In this document: positions 4,534 to 15,959 of the stretch, piece by piece
How the letters are laid out: the number at the start of each line of letters is the position of its first letter
Position numbering within the stretch: position 1 is the first letter of the stretch
From: Albibacterium bauzanense
GTDB taxonomy: Bacteria > Bacteroidota > Bacteroidia > Sphingobacteriales > Sphingobacteriaceae
Assembly (NCBI RefSeq): GCF_004339765.1
Contig: NZ_SMGO01000001.1
Coordinates: forward strand, 1,054,001-1,118,000
Direction of reading: 5' to 3'
Length of the DNA: 64,000 nt
Made by a program: the position numbers and the translations under genes
Notes under the pieces: generated by a model
The model's input: the letters and a program-made list of their open reading frames with translations, nothing else
Databases searched by the model: none
Told to the model about the DNA's origin: nothing

Positions 4534-4725
4534 ATGTTTAAACAAATCACAAACCTAAACGGTGACGAACGATATCTAATATTCTCCTTATTAATGTTTT
4601 TAGCCTTTTTCATTATAGTAGGAATCATGTTGTTCCGAATGAAAAAAGATTATGCAGAGCAAATGAGCCAAATGCCTTTAGAAGAGGATAATGAAATAAA
4701 CAAAATGGATACTGAAAATCTCTAA
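4534..4725 (+). CDS. CcoQ-like small membrane subunit
   Basis: 63-residue protein with one membrane helix at about residues 15-34 (LIFSLLMFLAFFIIVGIMLF) followed by a charged cytoplasmic tail. Its position between ccoNO and ccoP and its size match CcoQ/FixQ, the small non-catalytic subunit that stabilises cbb3 oxidase. The sequence itself carries no diagnostic motif, so the assignment rests on size, topology and context. It ends three bases before the ccoP ATG. Confidence 0.7.
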   Translation: MFKQITNLNGDERYLIFSLLMFLAFFIIVGIMLFRMKKDYAEQMSQMPLEEDNEINKMDTENL

Positions 4726-4728
4726 AAT

Positions 4729-5559
4729 ATGGAAACAATTAACATCCCTTCTACCTATTTATTCATTGTAACGATTGTTCTTTTCCTCACCTTATTGATT
4801 GCTTCAATCATTATTTTAAAGGCATTAAAAACCATTATAAAAGTAACAATGCCTGAGCTGGAACAGGAAGAAAAAGCATCGACAATCCCCAGTACTAATA
4901 AGAAATTACAACGTAAAGAAAGATGGAATAAAATCTGGGGTTTAAATCCGCTAGATAAAGAGGAAGAGATCATGATAGATCATGAATATGATGGCATCAG
5001 AGAACTTGACAATCCCATTCCGATGTGGTTCAATGCATTATTCTATTCTTCAATTGTTTTTGCAATTGGTTACCTGTTAGTATACCACGTATTTGGCTGG
5101 GGAATGACACAAGACGAAGAATACCAGGCAGCGATGCAAGCAGGTGAAAAGCAGCGAATAGAATTTCTGGAAAGCTCCGGCAGTAACATAGATGAAAATT
5201 CAGTCACATTGGATTTAAGTCCTGAGTTTGTGGCTGCCGGACAAGAAATATTCTTACAGAACTGCGGAATGTGCCATGGAAACCTAGGAGAAGGATTAAT
5301 AGGACCTAACCTTGCTGACGAATACTGGCTGCACGGTGGTGAAGTTGGAGAAATATTCAGAACAGTCAAATATGGAGTTCCTGAAAAAGGAATGGTACCA
5401 TGGGAAGCCAACCTAACTCCGGTACAGATTGCTCAAGTTTCAAATTTTATCCTATCCCTTGCAGGAACCAACCCGGACAATCCAAAAGACCCTGAGGGGG
5501 ATAAGAAAGAAACCACCGCTACAGAAGAGCCAACAAATACTGAAGAGGTTAAAATCTAA
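4729..5559 (+). CDS. ccoP: CcoP, membrane-bound cytochrome c subunit of cbb3 oxidase (single haem)
   Basis: Electron-entry subunit of the oxidase. Order: helix at residues 9-31; cytoplasmic linker rich in charged residues (40-95) containing the CcoP-type segment DHEYDGIRELDNPIPMW; second helix 102-123; periplasmic linker; one cytochrome c domain with C179-G-M-C182-H183 and a possible axial methionine in EKGMVPWEA; acidic low-complexity C-terminus (about 248-276). Proteobacterial CcoP usually has two CxxCH motifs; only one is present here, so electrons reach CcoO through fewer haems. It lies three bases after the ccoQ-like gene and five bases before ccoG. Confidence 0.94.
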   Translation: METINIPSTYLFIVTIVLFLTLLIASIIILKALKTIIKVTMPELEQEEKASTIPSTNKKLQRKERWNKIWGLNPLDKEEEIMIDHEYDGIRELDNPIPMWFNALFYSSIVFAIGYLLVYHVFGWGMTQDEEYQAAMQAGEKQRIEFLESSGSNIDENSVTLDLSPEFVAAGQEIFLQNCGMCHGNLGEGLIGPNLADEYWLHGGEVGEIFRTVKYGVPEKGMVPWEANLTPVQIAQVSNFILSLAGTNPDNPKDPEGDKKETTATEEPTNTEEVKI

Positions 5560-5564
5560 ATAAA

Positions 5565-6944
5565 ATGGCAGCAACAGAATACAAACCAACCATATCTGCA
5601 AAAATACCAAGGCCTATTTACGCAAAGAAGCCACACGGTCAACTTTTAAAATATCGTCATTGGTTTGGCTATTCATTATTGGCTATTTTTATAGCGATGC
5701 CTTTTATCAAAGTAAACGGCGAGCAATTCCTTCTCTTTGACATTATAGATAGAAAATTTGTTGTTTTTGGTACCGTTTTCTGGCCACAAGACCTGCATAT
5801 ATTTGTTTTCGGAATGCTTGTCTTCATGGTATTTATTGTCTTATTTACCGTCATCTATGGACGGATATGGTGTGGTTGGGCCTGTCCGCAAACTATTTTC
5901 ATGGAATTGATCTTCAGAAAAGTTGAGTATTGGATTGAAGGAGATGCAAATCAGCAGCGAAAGCTAAATAATGGACCGAATACATCTGATAAAATAGCTA
6001 AGAAAACGCTTAAACACATTATCTTTCTAGCAATCTCATTTCTGATCTCAAATCTCTTTCTATCTTATGTAATTGGAGTCGATCATCTCTATCAAATCAT
6101 AACTGATCCCATTACGCAGCACCTTGGAGGCTTAGCCTCCATAATCATATTTACCTTGATGTTTTATGGCGTGTTTGCATATGTTAGAGAAATCGTCTGC
6201 ACTACAATTTGCCCTTACGGACGCTTACAAGGAGTGTTATTGGATGATCAAAGTTTAGTAGTTGCCTATAATTACCAACGTGGTGAACCTCGCGGACATA
6301 TAAAAAAGAAAGACAATCAACATTCAGAATCAGGCGACTGTGTTGATTGCAACCTCTGTGTTCAGGTTTGTCCAACTGGTATCGATATCCGCGATGGTCT
6401 GCAGCTCGAATGCGTAAACTGTACAGCCTGTATTGATGCCTGTGATGATGTTATGGAGAAAATAAACAAACCTCCAAGGTTAATTGGCTTTTATTCTTCA
6501 AAGCAAATTGAGGAAAACACTAACGAAAAGAACAACTCCCGCATTATAGCCTACTCCATTGTATTAGCTTTACTTTTAGTTGTTTTTGGATGGCTTATTT
6601 TTTCAAGAACTACCGTGGGAGGGACTTTATTGAGAGCCAAAGGAACAAGCTATCAAATTAATACAGATGGTACCGTAAGCAATCTCTATAATCTGGAGCT
6701 TATTAACAAATCGGGCAACGAACTTCCGTTTAAACTTGAATCAATGGATAAGAACTTCACGATTAAACTGGTAAATTCACGTGATGTTCTGGCAAAAGAT
6801 GAAACGGCACAGTTTAGTTTTTTCCTTATTTCTGAATCAAAAAACATACACGACTATAAAACTGACATTAAGATCGATGTAGTTTCTGAAGGGAAAACAG
6901 TAGAAACTTTAAAAACTACCTTTATATCACCACCAACAGACTAA
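5565..6944 (+). CDS. ccoG: CcoG, membrane-bound polyferredoxin for cbb3 oxidase maturation
   Basis: 459-residue membrane iron-sulfur protein of the CcoG/RdxA/FixG family, linked to copper handling during cbb3 assembly (CcoG is reported to act as a cupric reductase in other bacteria). Helices near residues 34-48 and 77-98 are followed by a CGWACPQ cysteine pair (103-107), further helices, then two ferredoxin-like 4Fe-4S motifs: CVDCNLCVQVCP and CVNCTACIDAC around residues 259-295. After another helix (about 324-345) comes the periplasmic beta-rich FixG C-terminal domain. It is separated from ccoH by a single base. Confidence 0.95.
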   Translation: MAATEYKPTISAKIPRPIYAKKPHGQLLKYRHWFGYSLLAIFIAMPFIKVNGEQFLLFDIIDRKFVVFGTVFWPQDLHIFVFGMLVFMVFIVLFTVIYGRIWCGWACPQTIFMELIFRKVEYWIEGDANQQRKLNNGPNTSDKIAKKTLKHIIFLAISFLISNLFLSYVIGVDHLYQIITDPITQHLGGLASIIIFTLMFYGVFAYVREIVCTTICPYGRLQGVLLDDQSLVVAYNYQRGEPRGHIKKKDNQHSESGDCVDCNLCVQVCPTGIDIRDGLQLECVNCTACIDACDDVMEKINKPPRLIGFYSSKQIEENTNEKNNSRIIAYSIVLALLLVVFGWLIFSRTTVGGTLLRAKGTSYQINTDGTVSNLYNLELINKSGNELPFKLESMDKNFTIKLVNSRDVLAKDETAQFSFFLISESKNIHDYKTDIKIDVVSEGKTVETLKTTFISPPTD

Positions 6945-6945
6945 G

Positions 6946-7371
6946 ATGAACTGGGGAACAAAGATTTTTATAACATTATTGATTTTTATGGCAACAGCCA
7001 TAGGAACGGGGATTTATATGGTATCGCAAGATCAAGATACATTGATTGAGGATAACTATTATGAAAAAGGGATAAACTATGATTCTACTTATAACCAGAA
7101 AACGAACGTTCAGGAATTAAAGGCCGAACCAACAATCAGTACGAAAGATAATTACTTAGAAATCACTTTCACTGAAACAGGGAACAAAGGAATCCTTAAC
7201 CTGCAACGTACATCCAATTCTTCCTTAGATCAACAAATACCATTCTCTACCGAAGACAAAGTATTAAAATTTTCAACTGATATTCTTTCAAGTGGAGAAT
7301 GGAAAATTCGAATAAATTGGGAACACAATAACAACCTTTTCCTATTTGAAAAAGATATATTTATACCATGA
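6946..7371 (+). CDS. ccoH: CcoH/FixH-family protein, cbb3 oxidase assembly
   Basis: 141-residue protein with an N-terminal membrane anchor at residues 5-26 and a periplasmic beta-rich domain, the architecture of FixH/CcoH. The segment LIEDNYYEKGINYDSTYNQK is characteristic of the family. CcoH is needed for stable assembly of cbb3 oxidase and is thought to work with CcoI. The stop overlaps the start of the next gene by four bases (ATGA), indicating translational coupling to the TauE/SafE-type gene. Confidence 0.88.
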   Translation: MNWGTKIFITLLIFMATAIGTGIYMVSQDQDTLIEDNYYEKGINYDSTYNQKTNVQELKAEPTISTKDNYLEITFTETGNKGILNLQRTSNSSLDQQIPFSTEDKVLKFSTDILSSGEWKIRINWEHNNNLFLFEKDIFIP

Positions 7372-8066
7372 GCATCAACTATTTAGCATTCTTTATGGGT
7401 CTTCTTGGCAGCTTACATTGTGTCGCAATGTGTGGTCCACTCCTACTTGCACTCCCTTCAGCAGAAAAAAGCCATAGCCAGATCATCCTTAACCGCACTA
7501 TTTACCAATTAGGAAGAGTGCTAACCTATGCTGCTTTAGGAATGATCATTGGCTTCATATCTATAGGAGCAGAATACAAGGGATGGCAACAAGGTCTAAG
7601 TATTATAACAGGAGGTTTTCTATTGACTGTCGGGCTCTTTACTATTTTCAGTAACCATTCAAACTCTGCTAAATTAATTAAGATACAACAAAGGCTTTTC
7701 GCACCATTATTTAAGAAAATCGGCTATTGGTTATATAAACCTGGTGGCAATTTCTTTGCAGGCATATTAAACGGTTTCTTACCATGTGGTATGGTTTATA
7801 TTGCATTAGCAACTGCACTAAATACAGGCAATACATTAGCAGGGGGAAAATTCATGCTCCTATTCGGCCTAGGCACCTTACCTCTCATGCTATTGACCGG
7901 CATTTCAGGAAATTATATCAAAAAGATAATACCATTCAAACTCTCCGCCTGGCTACCTGCCATGTTTCTAATCATGGGTGCATGGTTTATTTTAAGAGGC
8001 TCTAATCTTGATATACCCTATCTTAGTCCTCTAATCTACCCTGAAGGAATGATCGACTGTAATTAA
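7368..8066 (+). CDS. TauE/SafE-family (CcoH2/DsbD-like) membrane protein in the cbb3 operon
   Basis: 232-residue polytopic membrane protein with about six helices. The pattern LLGSLHCVAMCGPLLLALP near the start and NGFLPCGMVYIALATA in the middle gives paired His/Cys and Cys positions in membrane helices. This is the sulfite exporter TauE/SafE annotation family that commonly closes cbb3 operons in Bacteroidota and Proteobacteria, where it is thought to help metal or redox handling during oxidase biogenesis. Function is inferred from context; sulfite export is not supported. It is translationally coupled to ccoH and ends three bases from the stop of the convergent gene at 8070. Confidence 0.83.
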   Translation: MSINYLAFFMGLLGSLHCVAMCGPLLLALPSAEKSHSQIILNRTIYQLGRVLTYAALGMIIGFISIGAEYKGWQQGLSIITGGFLLTVGLFTIFSNHSNSAKLIKIQQRLFAPLFKKIGYWLYKPGGNFFAGILNGFLPCGMVYIALATALNTGNTLAGGKFMLLFGLGTLPLMLLTGISGNYIKKIIPFKLSAWLPAMFLIMGAWFILRGSNLDIPYLSPLIYPEGMIDCN

Positions 8067-8069
8067 TAC

Positions 8070-8816
8070 TTAACCTGCTTGTCCAAGAAAGAACAGTAAA
8101 ATAATAACAGCAGCTATCAGCAATAACCAGCTTCCAATTGTTTTATAACTTAAAGCAGGGCCATCTTTTAAAACCTGAAAACCCATCGGCACTAAAGCAA
8201 TACAAAGTCCCAAAGTAGCAATAACCGAAACAATTGAGCTACCCTTCAACACGCCAAGCATCAAAGGCGACATACATGCAAATGCGATAGAGCGAACCAG
8301 GCCCATCGCACCCGAAAGATAAGCTCCGATTGCCAAAACAACCCATCCAAATAAGATAGCACCATTCAGTGTCGATACAATATGAAAGCCTCCGTAAGAA
8401 TCAGCTACAGTTTTCGTTGCCATTTCCAAACCTTGTAAACTCACCAGTTGAAAAGCAAAATGATCTACCCCGGCATGAAAAGTTCGTGCAAATAACCCAA
8501 AAATAACAAGCGTTCCTCCCCACAAAGCCCACTGACTTTTTCGAATACCAATATACCTTGCCAGTGTAATAATGGCTGGCCACAAAAGAATATTCCCCGT
8601 TACAAAGAAATTATAAGATGCAGCCATAAGACCAGGATGCTGTTCAAAAGCTTCAAGTTGTTGGGGAAAGAAAAAGTGAAATTGTATACGGAGTAAAACT
8701 CCCGTAAGTAAAACCAACGGAGCAACGATCATGGAGATGCCACCTATCCAACGACCCGGAAACCAAAATACTTGATCATGCCCTTCTCTATTTTTAAAGA
8801 GGCCCTGTTTTACCAT
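8070..8816 (-). CDS. Seven-helix membrane protein of unknown function
   Basis: 248 residues with seven predicted membrane helices (about 24-48, 66-90, 97-125, 142-168, 172-194, 198-214, 226-247) and very short loops. I do not recognise a family. Histidines sit in or next to helices (IQFHFFFP, FHAGVDHFAF, YGGFHIV), which could bind metal or haem, but there is no known motif. It stands alone on the minus strand, converging on the cbb3 locus with a three-base gap, and has about 400 bases of upstream sequence. ATG start; the bases just before it contain only a weak purine tract. Confidence 0.75.
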   Translation of the reverse strand: MVKQGLFKNREGHDQVFWFPGRWIGGISMIVAPLVLLTGVLLRIQFHFFFPQQLEAFEQHPGLMAASYNFFVTGNILLWPAIITLARYIGIRKSQWALWGGTLVIFGLFARTFHAGVDHFAFQLVSLQGLEMATKTVADSYGGFHIVSTLNGAILFGWVVLAIGAYLSGAMGLVRSIAFACMSPLMLGVLKGSSIVSVIATLGLCIALVPMGFQVLKDGPALSYKTIGSWLLLIAAVIILLFFLGQAG

Positions 8817-14374: not shown

Positions 14375-15220
14375 ATGAAAACAGGTATCACAGGAGCTAC
14401 AGGACAACTAGGTCGTTTAGTAGTAGAAAAATTAAAACAGAAAACAAACGCAGATAATTTAATAGCATTGGTGCGCTCACCCGAAAAAGCCGCTGATCTG
14501 GGAATTGAAGCACGCGCATTCGACTACACAAAACCTGAAGCATTAGCTAATGCTTTACAAGGAATTGATTATCTACTATTAATTTCAGGAAATGAAGTTG
14601 GTCAACGTAAAACTCAGCATGAAAATATAATCAGAGCTGCTCAAAAAGCTAATATTAAGTGGATCGTTTACACCAGCTTATTATATGCCGACACCTCTTC
14701 ATTGAGCTTAGCTCCTGAACATCTGGCAACAGAAGAACTATTGAAATCTTCCGGAATTCCTTACACCATTTTACGAAATGGCTGGTACACAGAAAACTAC
14801 ACAGGTTCAATACCTGGAGCTTTAGGCGCAGGCGCATTTATAGGTAGTGCCGGAGAAGGAAAGATATCTTCAGCAGCAAGAGAAGATTATGCTGAAGCTG
14901 CAGCTGTAGTGTTGACAAGCGAAGGACAACAAGGAAAAACATACGAATTGGCAGGCGATAATGCTTATACTCTAAAAGACTTGGCTACCGAAATATCTCG
15001 CCAAACAGGAAAAGACATTCCTTACAATAATCTCGCTGAAGAAGAATACGCCGGAATCTTAAAATCGGTAGGCTTACCTGAAGGTCTTGCCCAATCTATT
15101 GCCAGCTGGGATGTTGGTGTTTCAAAAGGTGATTTGTTTAACGATAGTAAAGTGCTTTCCAAATTAATTGGACATCCAACCACTCCTTTTACTGATACCG
15201 TAAAGAAAGCTTTGGTATAA
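14375..15220 (+). CDS. NmrA-like NAD(P)H:quinone oxidoreductase (QorB/YtfG type)
   Basis: 281-residue atypical short-chain dehydrogenase. The N-terminal nucleotide motif GITGATGQLGRLV (residues 4-16) and the body (YTSLLYADTSSLSLAPEH, TEELLKSSGIPYTILRNGWYTENY, AREDYAEAAAVVLTSEG) follow the pattern of E. coli QorB/YtfG, which reduces quinones with NADPH and is linked to quinone/electrophile stress. The catalytic Tyr-x3-Lys of classical SDRs is absent, as in that family. It is the last gene before a repeat element and is preceded by a palindrome shared with the Rrf2 gene, which points to regulation by redox or electrophile signals. Confidence 0.87.
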   Translation: MKTGITGATGQLGRLVVEKLKQKTNADNLIALVRSPEKAADLGIEARAFDYTKPEALANALQGIDYLLLISGNEVGQRKTQHENIIRAAQKANIKWIVYTSLLYADTSSLSLAPEHLATEELLKSSGIPYTILRNGWYTENYTGSIPGALGAGAFIGSAGEGKISSAAREDYAEAAAVVLTSEGQQGKTYELAGDNAYTLKDLATEISRQTGKDIPYNNLAEEEYAGILKSVGLPEGLAQSIASWDVGVSKGDLFNDSKVLSKLIGHPTTPFTDTVKKALV

Positions 15221-15353
15221 ATAGATCCATATTACGATAAACACAGAAAAGCCAGATATCTTTTTACAAAAAGCTATATGGCTCTTCTATATCTAAAAAT
15301 TGTATAATCTATTTAACTATTTCAGGCTAAAACACGTTTTTATCTCGATTTAC

Positions 15354-15444
15354 TCAAACAAGGATCAAACAGGGGTCAAACAAGGACCAAACAGGGGCAA
15401 AACAGTCATATTGCCCTTGCTTTATCCCTGTTTGGTCCTTGTTT
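15354..15444. repeat. 11-bp tandem repeats forming a long inverted repeat
   Basis: Four 11-bp units (15354-15397) alternate between TCAAACAAGGA and [T/C]CAAACAGGGG, followed by a decayed CAAAACAG. The last two units pair with a downstream copy: AAACAAGGACCAAACAGGG at 15378-15396 is the exact reverse complement of 15426-15444 (19 bp, 29-base loop), and within the loop GGGCAA can pair with TTGCCC (15411-15416). It lies between convergent genes ending at 15220 and 15501. It may act as a bidirectional terminator or be a dispersed repeat; no second copy occurs in this window. Confidence 0.75.
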
Positions 15445-15500
15445 AATATGAGTTTAACTTTTGTTTGGGTAAAATGAAGTAGCCAGTTAAATTATCACAC

Positions 15501-15959
15501 TCAAATTGATTTTACTTTGTATGCAATCATTGCATTCTCAATTTGTGATTCTTCTGTCGTATCAGGATACAAGAAATAACTTGGTGCTTGAATCACATCT
15601 ACTTGTGTAACTTTAATTTCTATTACTGATTTTATTGGAAATTTATCCGTAAATAAGTCTGTTAAAGGCTTCACCTTTGCTTGGAAGCTCTCGTCGTCTT
15701 TGTCAATAAGTTTCGCTTTCCCTTTTATTTTAAACCCTTTTTGAACAAATACGTCTACGAAGCTTACACAAACGTTTGGATTCTCTTTAATGTTATTGAT
15801 ACTATTTGGTGAAGCAAGATTTGCTATTAACAATGTTGTATCATCCTGATATGTGAAAAGTTCTTTTGGTGAAACATTAGGTTCATTCTGCATATTACAA
15901 GTAGCCAGCCAACACAATATGCTTTTGTCAATATATTTCTTTACTTCGTTATTTATCAT
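15501..15959 (-). CDS. Pyridoxamine 5'-phosphate oxidase-like FMN-binding split-barrel protein
   Basis: 152 residues; the split-barrel pattern CWLATCNMQNEPNVSPKELF (residues 16-35) followed by LLIANLASPNSINNIKENPNVCVSFVD and FKIKGKAKLIDKD matches the PNPOx-like family of small flavin-binding proteins. Many members bind FMN, F420 or haem and reduce small electrophiles; the specific substrate is unknown. It lies 25 bases downstream of the transglutaminase-like gene on the same strand and may be cotranscribed with it. Confidence 0.85.
   Translation of the reverse strand: MINNEVKKYIDKSILCWLATCNMQNEPNVSPKELFTYQDDTTLLIANLASPNSINNIKENPNVCVSFVDVFVQKGFKIKGKAKLIDKDDESFQAKVKPLTDLFTDKFPIKSVIEIKVTQVDVIQAPSYFLYPDTTEESQIENAMIAYKVKSI

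Follow-up and report, generated by a model that had tools for sequence, protein, structure and literature searches.

Iterons and operator arrays consist of direct repeats that follow one another at intervals of helical turns, close to a gene whose product is presumed to bind them. Among dispersed palindromes, the closest described systems are the 'REPtrons', in which REP or REPIN sequences accompany a RAYT (TnpA-REP) gene; these are described as having a GTAG or CGTC tag at a palindrome of 20–40 bp (PMC3733652). The locus investigated here is a hairpin built of 11-bp units, copies of which are scattered over the chromosome and in some cases stand upstream of a gene encoding a DUF6266 (PF19781) protein. 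No description of these 11-bp repeats or of DUF6266 was found in a literature search.

The hairpin lies in a window of 64 kb (the whole stretch of DNA that was analysed) at a convergent gene junction. Its features are as follows, family A being the window's own type of repeat and family B the second type identified in the same genome.

14375–15220, + strand: left neighbour, NmrA-like/NAD(P)H-binding, outside the element (gene call, domain match)
15340–15353, + strand: head flank TTATCTCGATTTAC, conserved beyond the array in several family-A copies and in the DUF6266-linked family-A copy
15354–15397, + strand: proximal arm of four 11-bp units, TCAAACAAGGA (15354–15364), TCAAACAGGGG (15365–15375), TCAAACAAGGA (15376–15386), and CCAAACAGGGG (15387–15397) (sequence, TRF, repeat finder)
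15378–15396, + strand: left half of the perfect 19-bp inverted repeat (sequence, folding)
15395–15400, + strand: left side of the inner stem, GGGCAA (sequence)
15398–15416, + strand: apical unit and loop CAAAACAGTCATATTGCCC, common to most copies of both families, roughly as AACAGTCNTATTRCC
15411–15416, + strand: right side of the inner stem, TTGCCC (sequence)
15426–15444, + strand: right half of the perfect 19-bp inverted repeat (sequence, folding)
15445–15473, + strand: outer, degenerate 11-periodic part of the distal arm (repeat finding, folding, alignment)
15501–15959, − strand: right neighbour, PNPOx-like, outside the element (gene call, domain match)

The tandem units, the inverted pair with 29 bases between its halves, the inner stem, and the convergent setting are all as an earlier note on this DNA had described them, although the hairpin is bigger than first described, its outer arm running on to approximately 15473. 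Folding is far better than chance on both strands (z = −7.67 on the + strand and −9.66 on the − strand; none of 200 shuffles equally good). The motif CAAACARGG occurs five times in the window, every time in the hairpin array, against an expectation of 1.04. Past the left gene, a possible ordinary terminator-like hairpin was seen by eye at 15247–15287, which the terminator script did not call.

About a dozen further places came out of a DNA search of G000, the 3.08-Mb genome that contains the window, and a pattern search added another spelling of the unit, CAAACAGTGGT. When 21 copies are lined up on their loops, they form a gap-free alignment in which most share the apical stretch, and families A and B therefore look related. 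A covariance model built from these 21 copies finds at least 28 copies in G000, by unit reading 12 of family A and 16 of family B; this is a lower bound, since 150 of 1237 candidates were scored by the model. Across 60 genomes, searched with stricter filters than G000, the model finds 13 places in G001 (the one congener searched), one weak match in G018, and none in the other 57. When 400 genomes of the order were scanned with a pattern, the few outliers were G000 (44 matches), G424 (15), G116 (10), G353 (six), and G157 (five); the remaining genomes have between none and three, and a reversed control pattern reaches four. Most of 66 further matching stretches, inspected as one 170-base piece each, look like unrelated single matches. 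One suggestion of the earlier note was a repeat family belonging to the genus, either mobile or dispersed, to be doubted if the genome held no other copy; as a dispersed family, this suggestion is borne out by the copies in G000 and G001.

Variants of the repeat were also seen. In G116 (L259–L263) the copies are flanked by extra 11-bp units spelled otherwise, GTTCGGTNNAT and ACCGAACA, so the palindrome there may be much longer. Pattern scans of viral contigs picked out six contigs, one with a true copy (L279) and five with unrelated or non-palindromic matches. The true copy, of family B, lies in IMGVR_UViG_3300012846_000025 (4653–8191), flanked by genes for a tyrosine integrase and an M16 peptidase, which suggests a prophage edge next to host DNA. 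In two viral contigs (L282 and L284), 11-bp units resembling GGCCCAAACAG stand in tandem; each unit is self-complementary, but the array makes no fold-back hairpin. A plasmid or phage origin of the repeats was considered and rejected, the window copy matching no plasmid and one family-B copy, used as the query, matching no phage.

The copies occupy the spaces between genes. Only one of 41 copy centres falls inside an ORF of at least 100 aa, that ORF being 101 aa long, compared with 179 of 205 random positions. It is near certain that the window feature is a dispersed extragenic repeat. Neighbouring gene orientation, called by a simple codon-score gene caller rather than taken from annotation, is convergent for 12, co-directional for 12, and divergent for four of the 28 copies in G000 (15, 61, and 24 for other gene pairs at the same loci), and convergent for three, co-directional for four, and divergent for six of the 13 in G001 (7, 28, and 8 for other pairs). 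The earlier note had asked whether copies sit at the 3′ ends of convergent genes; in both genomes the majority are not at convergent junctions. At one convergent junction (G000:C2:146574) the G001 orthologue is without the element and retains a U-tract terminator that is also present in G000, while at another (L210/L183) both genomes have the element with different unit spelling. The two flanks of the window locus map to separate places in G001. Transposition itself was not observed, and neither a target duplication nor the precise point of insertion could be made out, the one aligned empty site not showing the edges. A link to replication polarity was considered and abandoned: by eye, the 13 copies in G001 seemed to point in mixed directions.

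The earlier note had also proposed a bidirectional transcription terminator that has grown by unit duplication. The hairpin is stable on both strands and convergent junctions are enriched among the G000 copies, as would suit this proposal, but 16 of the 28 copies in G000 and 10 of the 13 in G001 are away from such junctions. There is no U-tract or T-run after the stem of the window hairpin, and the positions of the 41 copies do not fit an intrinsic terminator, a stem followed by a U-tract at gene 3′ ends. Ordinary U-tract terminators persist beside the copies: in 10 of 36 cases a crude script places one after the end of the gene and before the element, and one is retained at the empty G001 site. 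A terminator is therefore highly improbable.

For a conserved structured RNA, a further proposal of the earlier note, the alignment offers some statistics in favour: 70.3 % of cells are paired, compared with 67.9 % after shuffling (two of 500 reaching the observed level) and no more than 44.5 % in slid controls; there are 81 double changes against 64 (four of 500); and the covariation score is 0.232 against 0.195 (one of 500). These raised pair counts mix two related families, however, and such mixing can produce them. A hairpin kept as RNA would need each copy's own arms to fit best, and they do not: own-arm and cross-copy pairing are 0.620 and 0.623 in family A, and 0.598 and 0.634 in family B, with duplex energies giving p = 0.25 and 0.99. 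In Rfam 15, eight loci gave six matches at E ≤ 0.1, none at the gathering score and five of them microRNA models. On these observations both the terminator and the RNA readings are unlikely, the RNA reading having even less of a chance than the terminator.

When the ORFs beside 61 copy loci in G000 and six other genomes were compared, DUF6266 was the immediate neighbour at five, with the element always upstream (two of 28 loci in G000, one of 13 in G001, one of three in G157, the single locus in G267, and none of the 16 loci of three further genomes). One more ORF in the DUF6266 cluster, the sixth, is a translated piece of hairpin. In a Daejeonella MAG match, DUF6266 is again the immediate neighbour, with the element upstream. 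There are 82 PF19781 matches in seven genomes, three of them in G000, and two of those three carry linked copies, one of family A (upstream of the gene at G000:C1:750420-751025) and one of family B (upstream of the gene at G000:C2:1098040-1098645). The window copy has an array of its own spelling ahead of a DUF6266 gene in the same genome; it matches the array of the gene at C1:750420 at 81 % over 81 nt, with a score level with that of the G157 array (69 % over 137 nt).

Other genes also recur near copies. The largest recurrent neighbour set is not DUF6266, which comes second; it is made up of 3-keto-disaccharide-hydrolase-like genes (seven ORFs at six loci, L199, L206, L208, L212, L215, and L276), which adjoin copies immediately at three loci, on either side. 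These are probably a large paralogous family, and the SusD and TonB-receptor genes that recur near copies are taken for large paralogous families likewise. Some similar arrays, in L098, L106, and L158, have no DUF6266 detected in the stretch examined; those of L098 and L106, from Bacteroidota MAGs, are hairpin arrays with units such as AAAGACGGATC.

The association with DUF6266 extends to genes with other unit spellings. Upstream regions were available for 63 of the 82 PF19781 matches, the rest being fragments, lacking upstream sequence, or not fetched, and 30 of the 63 have a lag-11 identity of at least 0.58, a threshold set after the first values were seen and then left unchanged for the controls. 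This level was reached by none of 128 upstream regions of other genes (drawn from G000 and G001 only), none of 25 downstream regions and one of 25 far upstream regions of the same genes, and none of 126 shuffles. Other lags from 6 to 25 reach it in at most four regions, with the exception of lag 22, the double of 11 (15 regions); lag 10 does so in four, among them L339, which is also at threshold at lag 11. The upstream stretch includes some coding sequence where the DUF6266 match starts inside the profile, and by coordinates five of the 63 regions precede a gene that immediately follows another DUF6266 gene. The other 33 regions are below threshold. Unit spelling varies between the genes. Folding z scores under −3 were obtained for 16 of the 30 array regions, five of the 33 regions without an array, and one of 41 random stretches.

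In a wider survey DUF6266 was present in 14 of 295 genomes of the class. This added 19 upstream regions, five of them at threshold, L367, L368, L370, and L372 in other families and L363 in a congener of the Daejeonella MAG; the L368 array scores better at lag 10 than at lag 11. The most Pfam-typical members (L355–L360) have upstream regions below threshold. In viral contigs, 14 pattern matches to DUF6266 yielded none that was confirmed. It is very likely that repeats of the window type are linked to DUF6266.

Such a link might reflect regulation in cis. The arrays would then be operators or 5′-leader hairpins controlling DUF6266 genes, while the solo copies would have arisen by accidental duplication or would serve the same DNA-binding regulator as additional sites. 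Most strong arrays start 150–220 nt before the DUF6266 start (others within about 320), the CAAAC-bearing arm comes first in the ten AAACA-like cases read, and an 11-bp step would set the sites on one face of B-DNA. The solo copies fit this less well, being equally often convergent and co-directional in G000, and copy numbers of up to 28 in one genome are high for accidental duplicates. Regulation in cis is possible but is considered the less probable explanation.

If the arrays instead give rise to the solo copies, a clear DUF6266 array should foretell scattered copies in its own genome. Seven arrays, each ahead of a DUF6266 gene and picked from among the clearest rather than at random, were searched in four genomes, and all seven have further copies at home: 14, one weak, for L288 (G001), two for L333 (G267), 14 for L363 (G021), and, in G353, one for L334, four for L342, one for L313, and two weak for L327. 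The three weak matches have E values from 1e-4 to 0.006. At E ≤ 0.1 no array matches another of the four genomes, except for the like-spelled L342 and L333. Inspection of 21 stretches by eye (one mis-centred) showed clear hairpins with 11-bp units for the copies of L288, L342, and L333; the L363 copies consist mostly of direct units, their inverted half being degenerate. No ORF longer than 72 aa covers the centre in any of 18 home-genome copies checked. The best match of a solo copy is a DUF6266 array of its own genome in 37 of 56 cases, and in one more once the copy was properly cut. Many family-B copies of G000, by contrast, score best against the G001 array, and all four copies of a scattered TAAACAGGGTG family in G353 against a DUF6266 array of G267 rather than their own.

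Array presence also follows the DUF6266 gene tree. Among 28 proteins it needs four changes, compared with a mean of 9.5 in shuffles (none of 500 as low). In one clade of nine, seven have AAACA-type units and two (L290 and L300) looser ones; L278, a member of this clade, is below threshold yet has units. In a clade of eleven, none is at threshold, L307 having a clear palindrome below it and L299 a 10-bp array. One array-less DUF6266 gene is in synteny between G000 and G001; the array-bearing genes compared are not. A related hydrolase gene is near nine of 13 loci counted as array-less and none of 15 array-bearing ones; of two such hydrolases tested with Pfam, one is a CHAP protein and the other is below cut-off. 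At these array-less loci (L285, L287, L289, L293, L297, L298, L299, L306, and L308) the hydrolase is often accompanied by a small hydrophobic-looking protein, an arrangement resembling a lysis cassette.

Another source of the copies might be a MITE-like element moved by an unrelated transposase, for which DUF6266 is a frequent passenger or target. Three G001 copies (L189, L193, and L194) have 183–233 bp in common at 85–88 % identity with a conserved head, as such an element might; by eye there is no tail repeat to match that head. It would also suit this explanation that no catalytic domain is known in DUF6266: five of the proteins matched no Pfam family but DUF6266, and those tested against PDB, PHROGs, NCBIfam, and PADLOC had no significant relative, the best PDB match being weakly to fibronectin-III (E 0.31). 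The structure model is poor (mean pLDDT 50.8). However, the link to DUF6266 recurs with different spellings across DUF6266 lineages and genera, which is hardly expected of a passenger. Likewise, of the 12 largest clusters of other genes near the 28 DUF6266 genes, only two are common to array-bearing loci, both shared by L291 and L302 of one genome; the transposase search covered PF01797 only. An independent transposase is therefore improbable, more so than regulation in cis.

The explanation preferred here, by a modest margin of belief over disbelief, treats the feature in the window as one of many solo copies of an imperfect palindrome of 11-bp units that is dispersed outside genes; the source would be the DUF6266-linked hairpin, and the solo copies its non-autonomous offspring. 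DUF6266, or a partner acting with it, would recognise units that recur about once per turn of DNA and promote their copying, in the manner presumed for RAYT and REP. The window copy would then need no function of its own and would sit where harm is small. Spread by or with DUF6266 is plausible, with DUF6266 itself as the putative driver. The fuller proposal, that DUF6266 is a new repeat-partner protein with a lineage-specific 11-bp unit, array and gene together being autonomous and seeding solo hairpins, is put forward tentatively, as somewhat less likely to be right than wrong.

Set against known systems, the repeats have features in common with three. Like iterons and operator arrays, they include direct repeats with helical spacing by the gene of a presumed binding protein; unlike these, they have solo copies scattered over the chromosome and arrays that fold back. 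Like MITEs and other miniature repeats such as the Correia elements, they are short, non-coding, spacer-bound, palindromic, and present in tens of copies, but no clear terminal inverted repeat or target duplication was found and the body is a periodic array.

In the way they work, the repeats resemble REPtrons. These too combine extragenic, dispersed hairpin palindromes in genome-specific families, a cognate gene carrying the same palindrome, and a repeat spelling that appears to vary together with the clade of the gene (PMC3116915, PMC8266576, PMC3733652); many dispersed extragenic hairpin copies are indeed present in G000 and G001. The differences are that the units here are 11 bp long and stand in arrays with long imperfect arms, rather than in a tagged palindrome of 20–40 bp, and that the partner gene is DUF6266. 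No conserved GTAG or CGTC columns were seen by eye in the 21-copy alignment, and PF01797 (the Y1/HUH transposase family of RAYT) has no match in G000, compared with five positive genomes out of 14 controls, although past gene loss is possible. By the features tested, the window repeats are not a REPtron. They tie the uncharacterised DUF6266 family to a class of genome-shaping repeats. If DUF6266 does recognise or move the arrays, it would be a second, independent solution to the presumed role of RAYT, with many gene–repeat pairs in which specificity could be decoded, and the whole would be a gene–repeat system analogous to REPtrons, built on an unrelated protein family.
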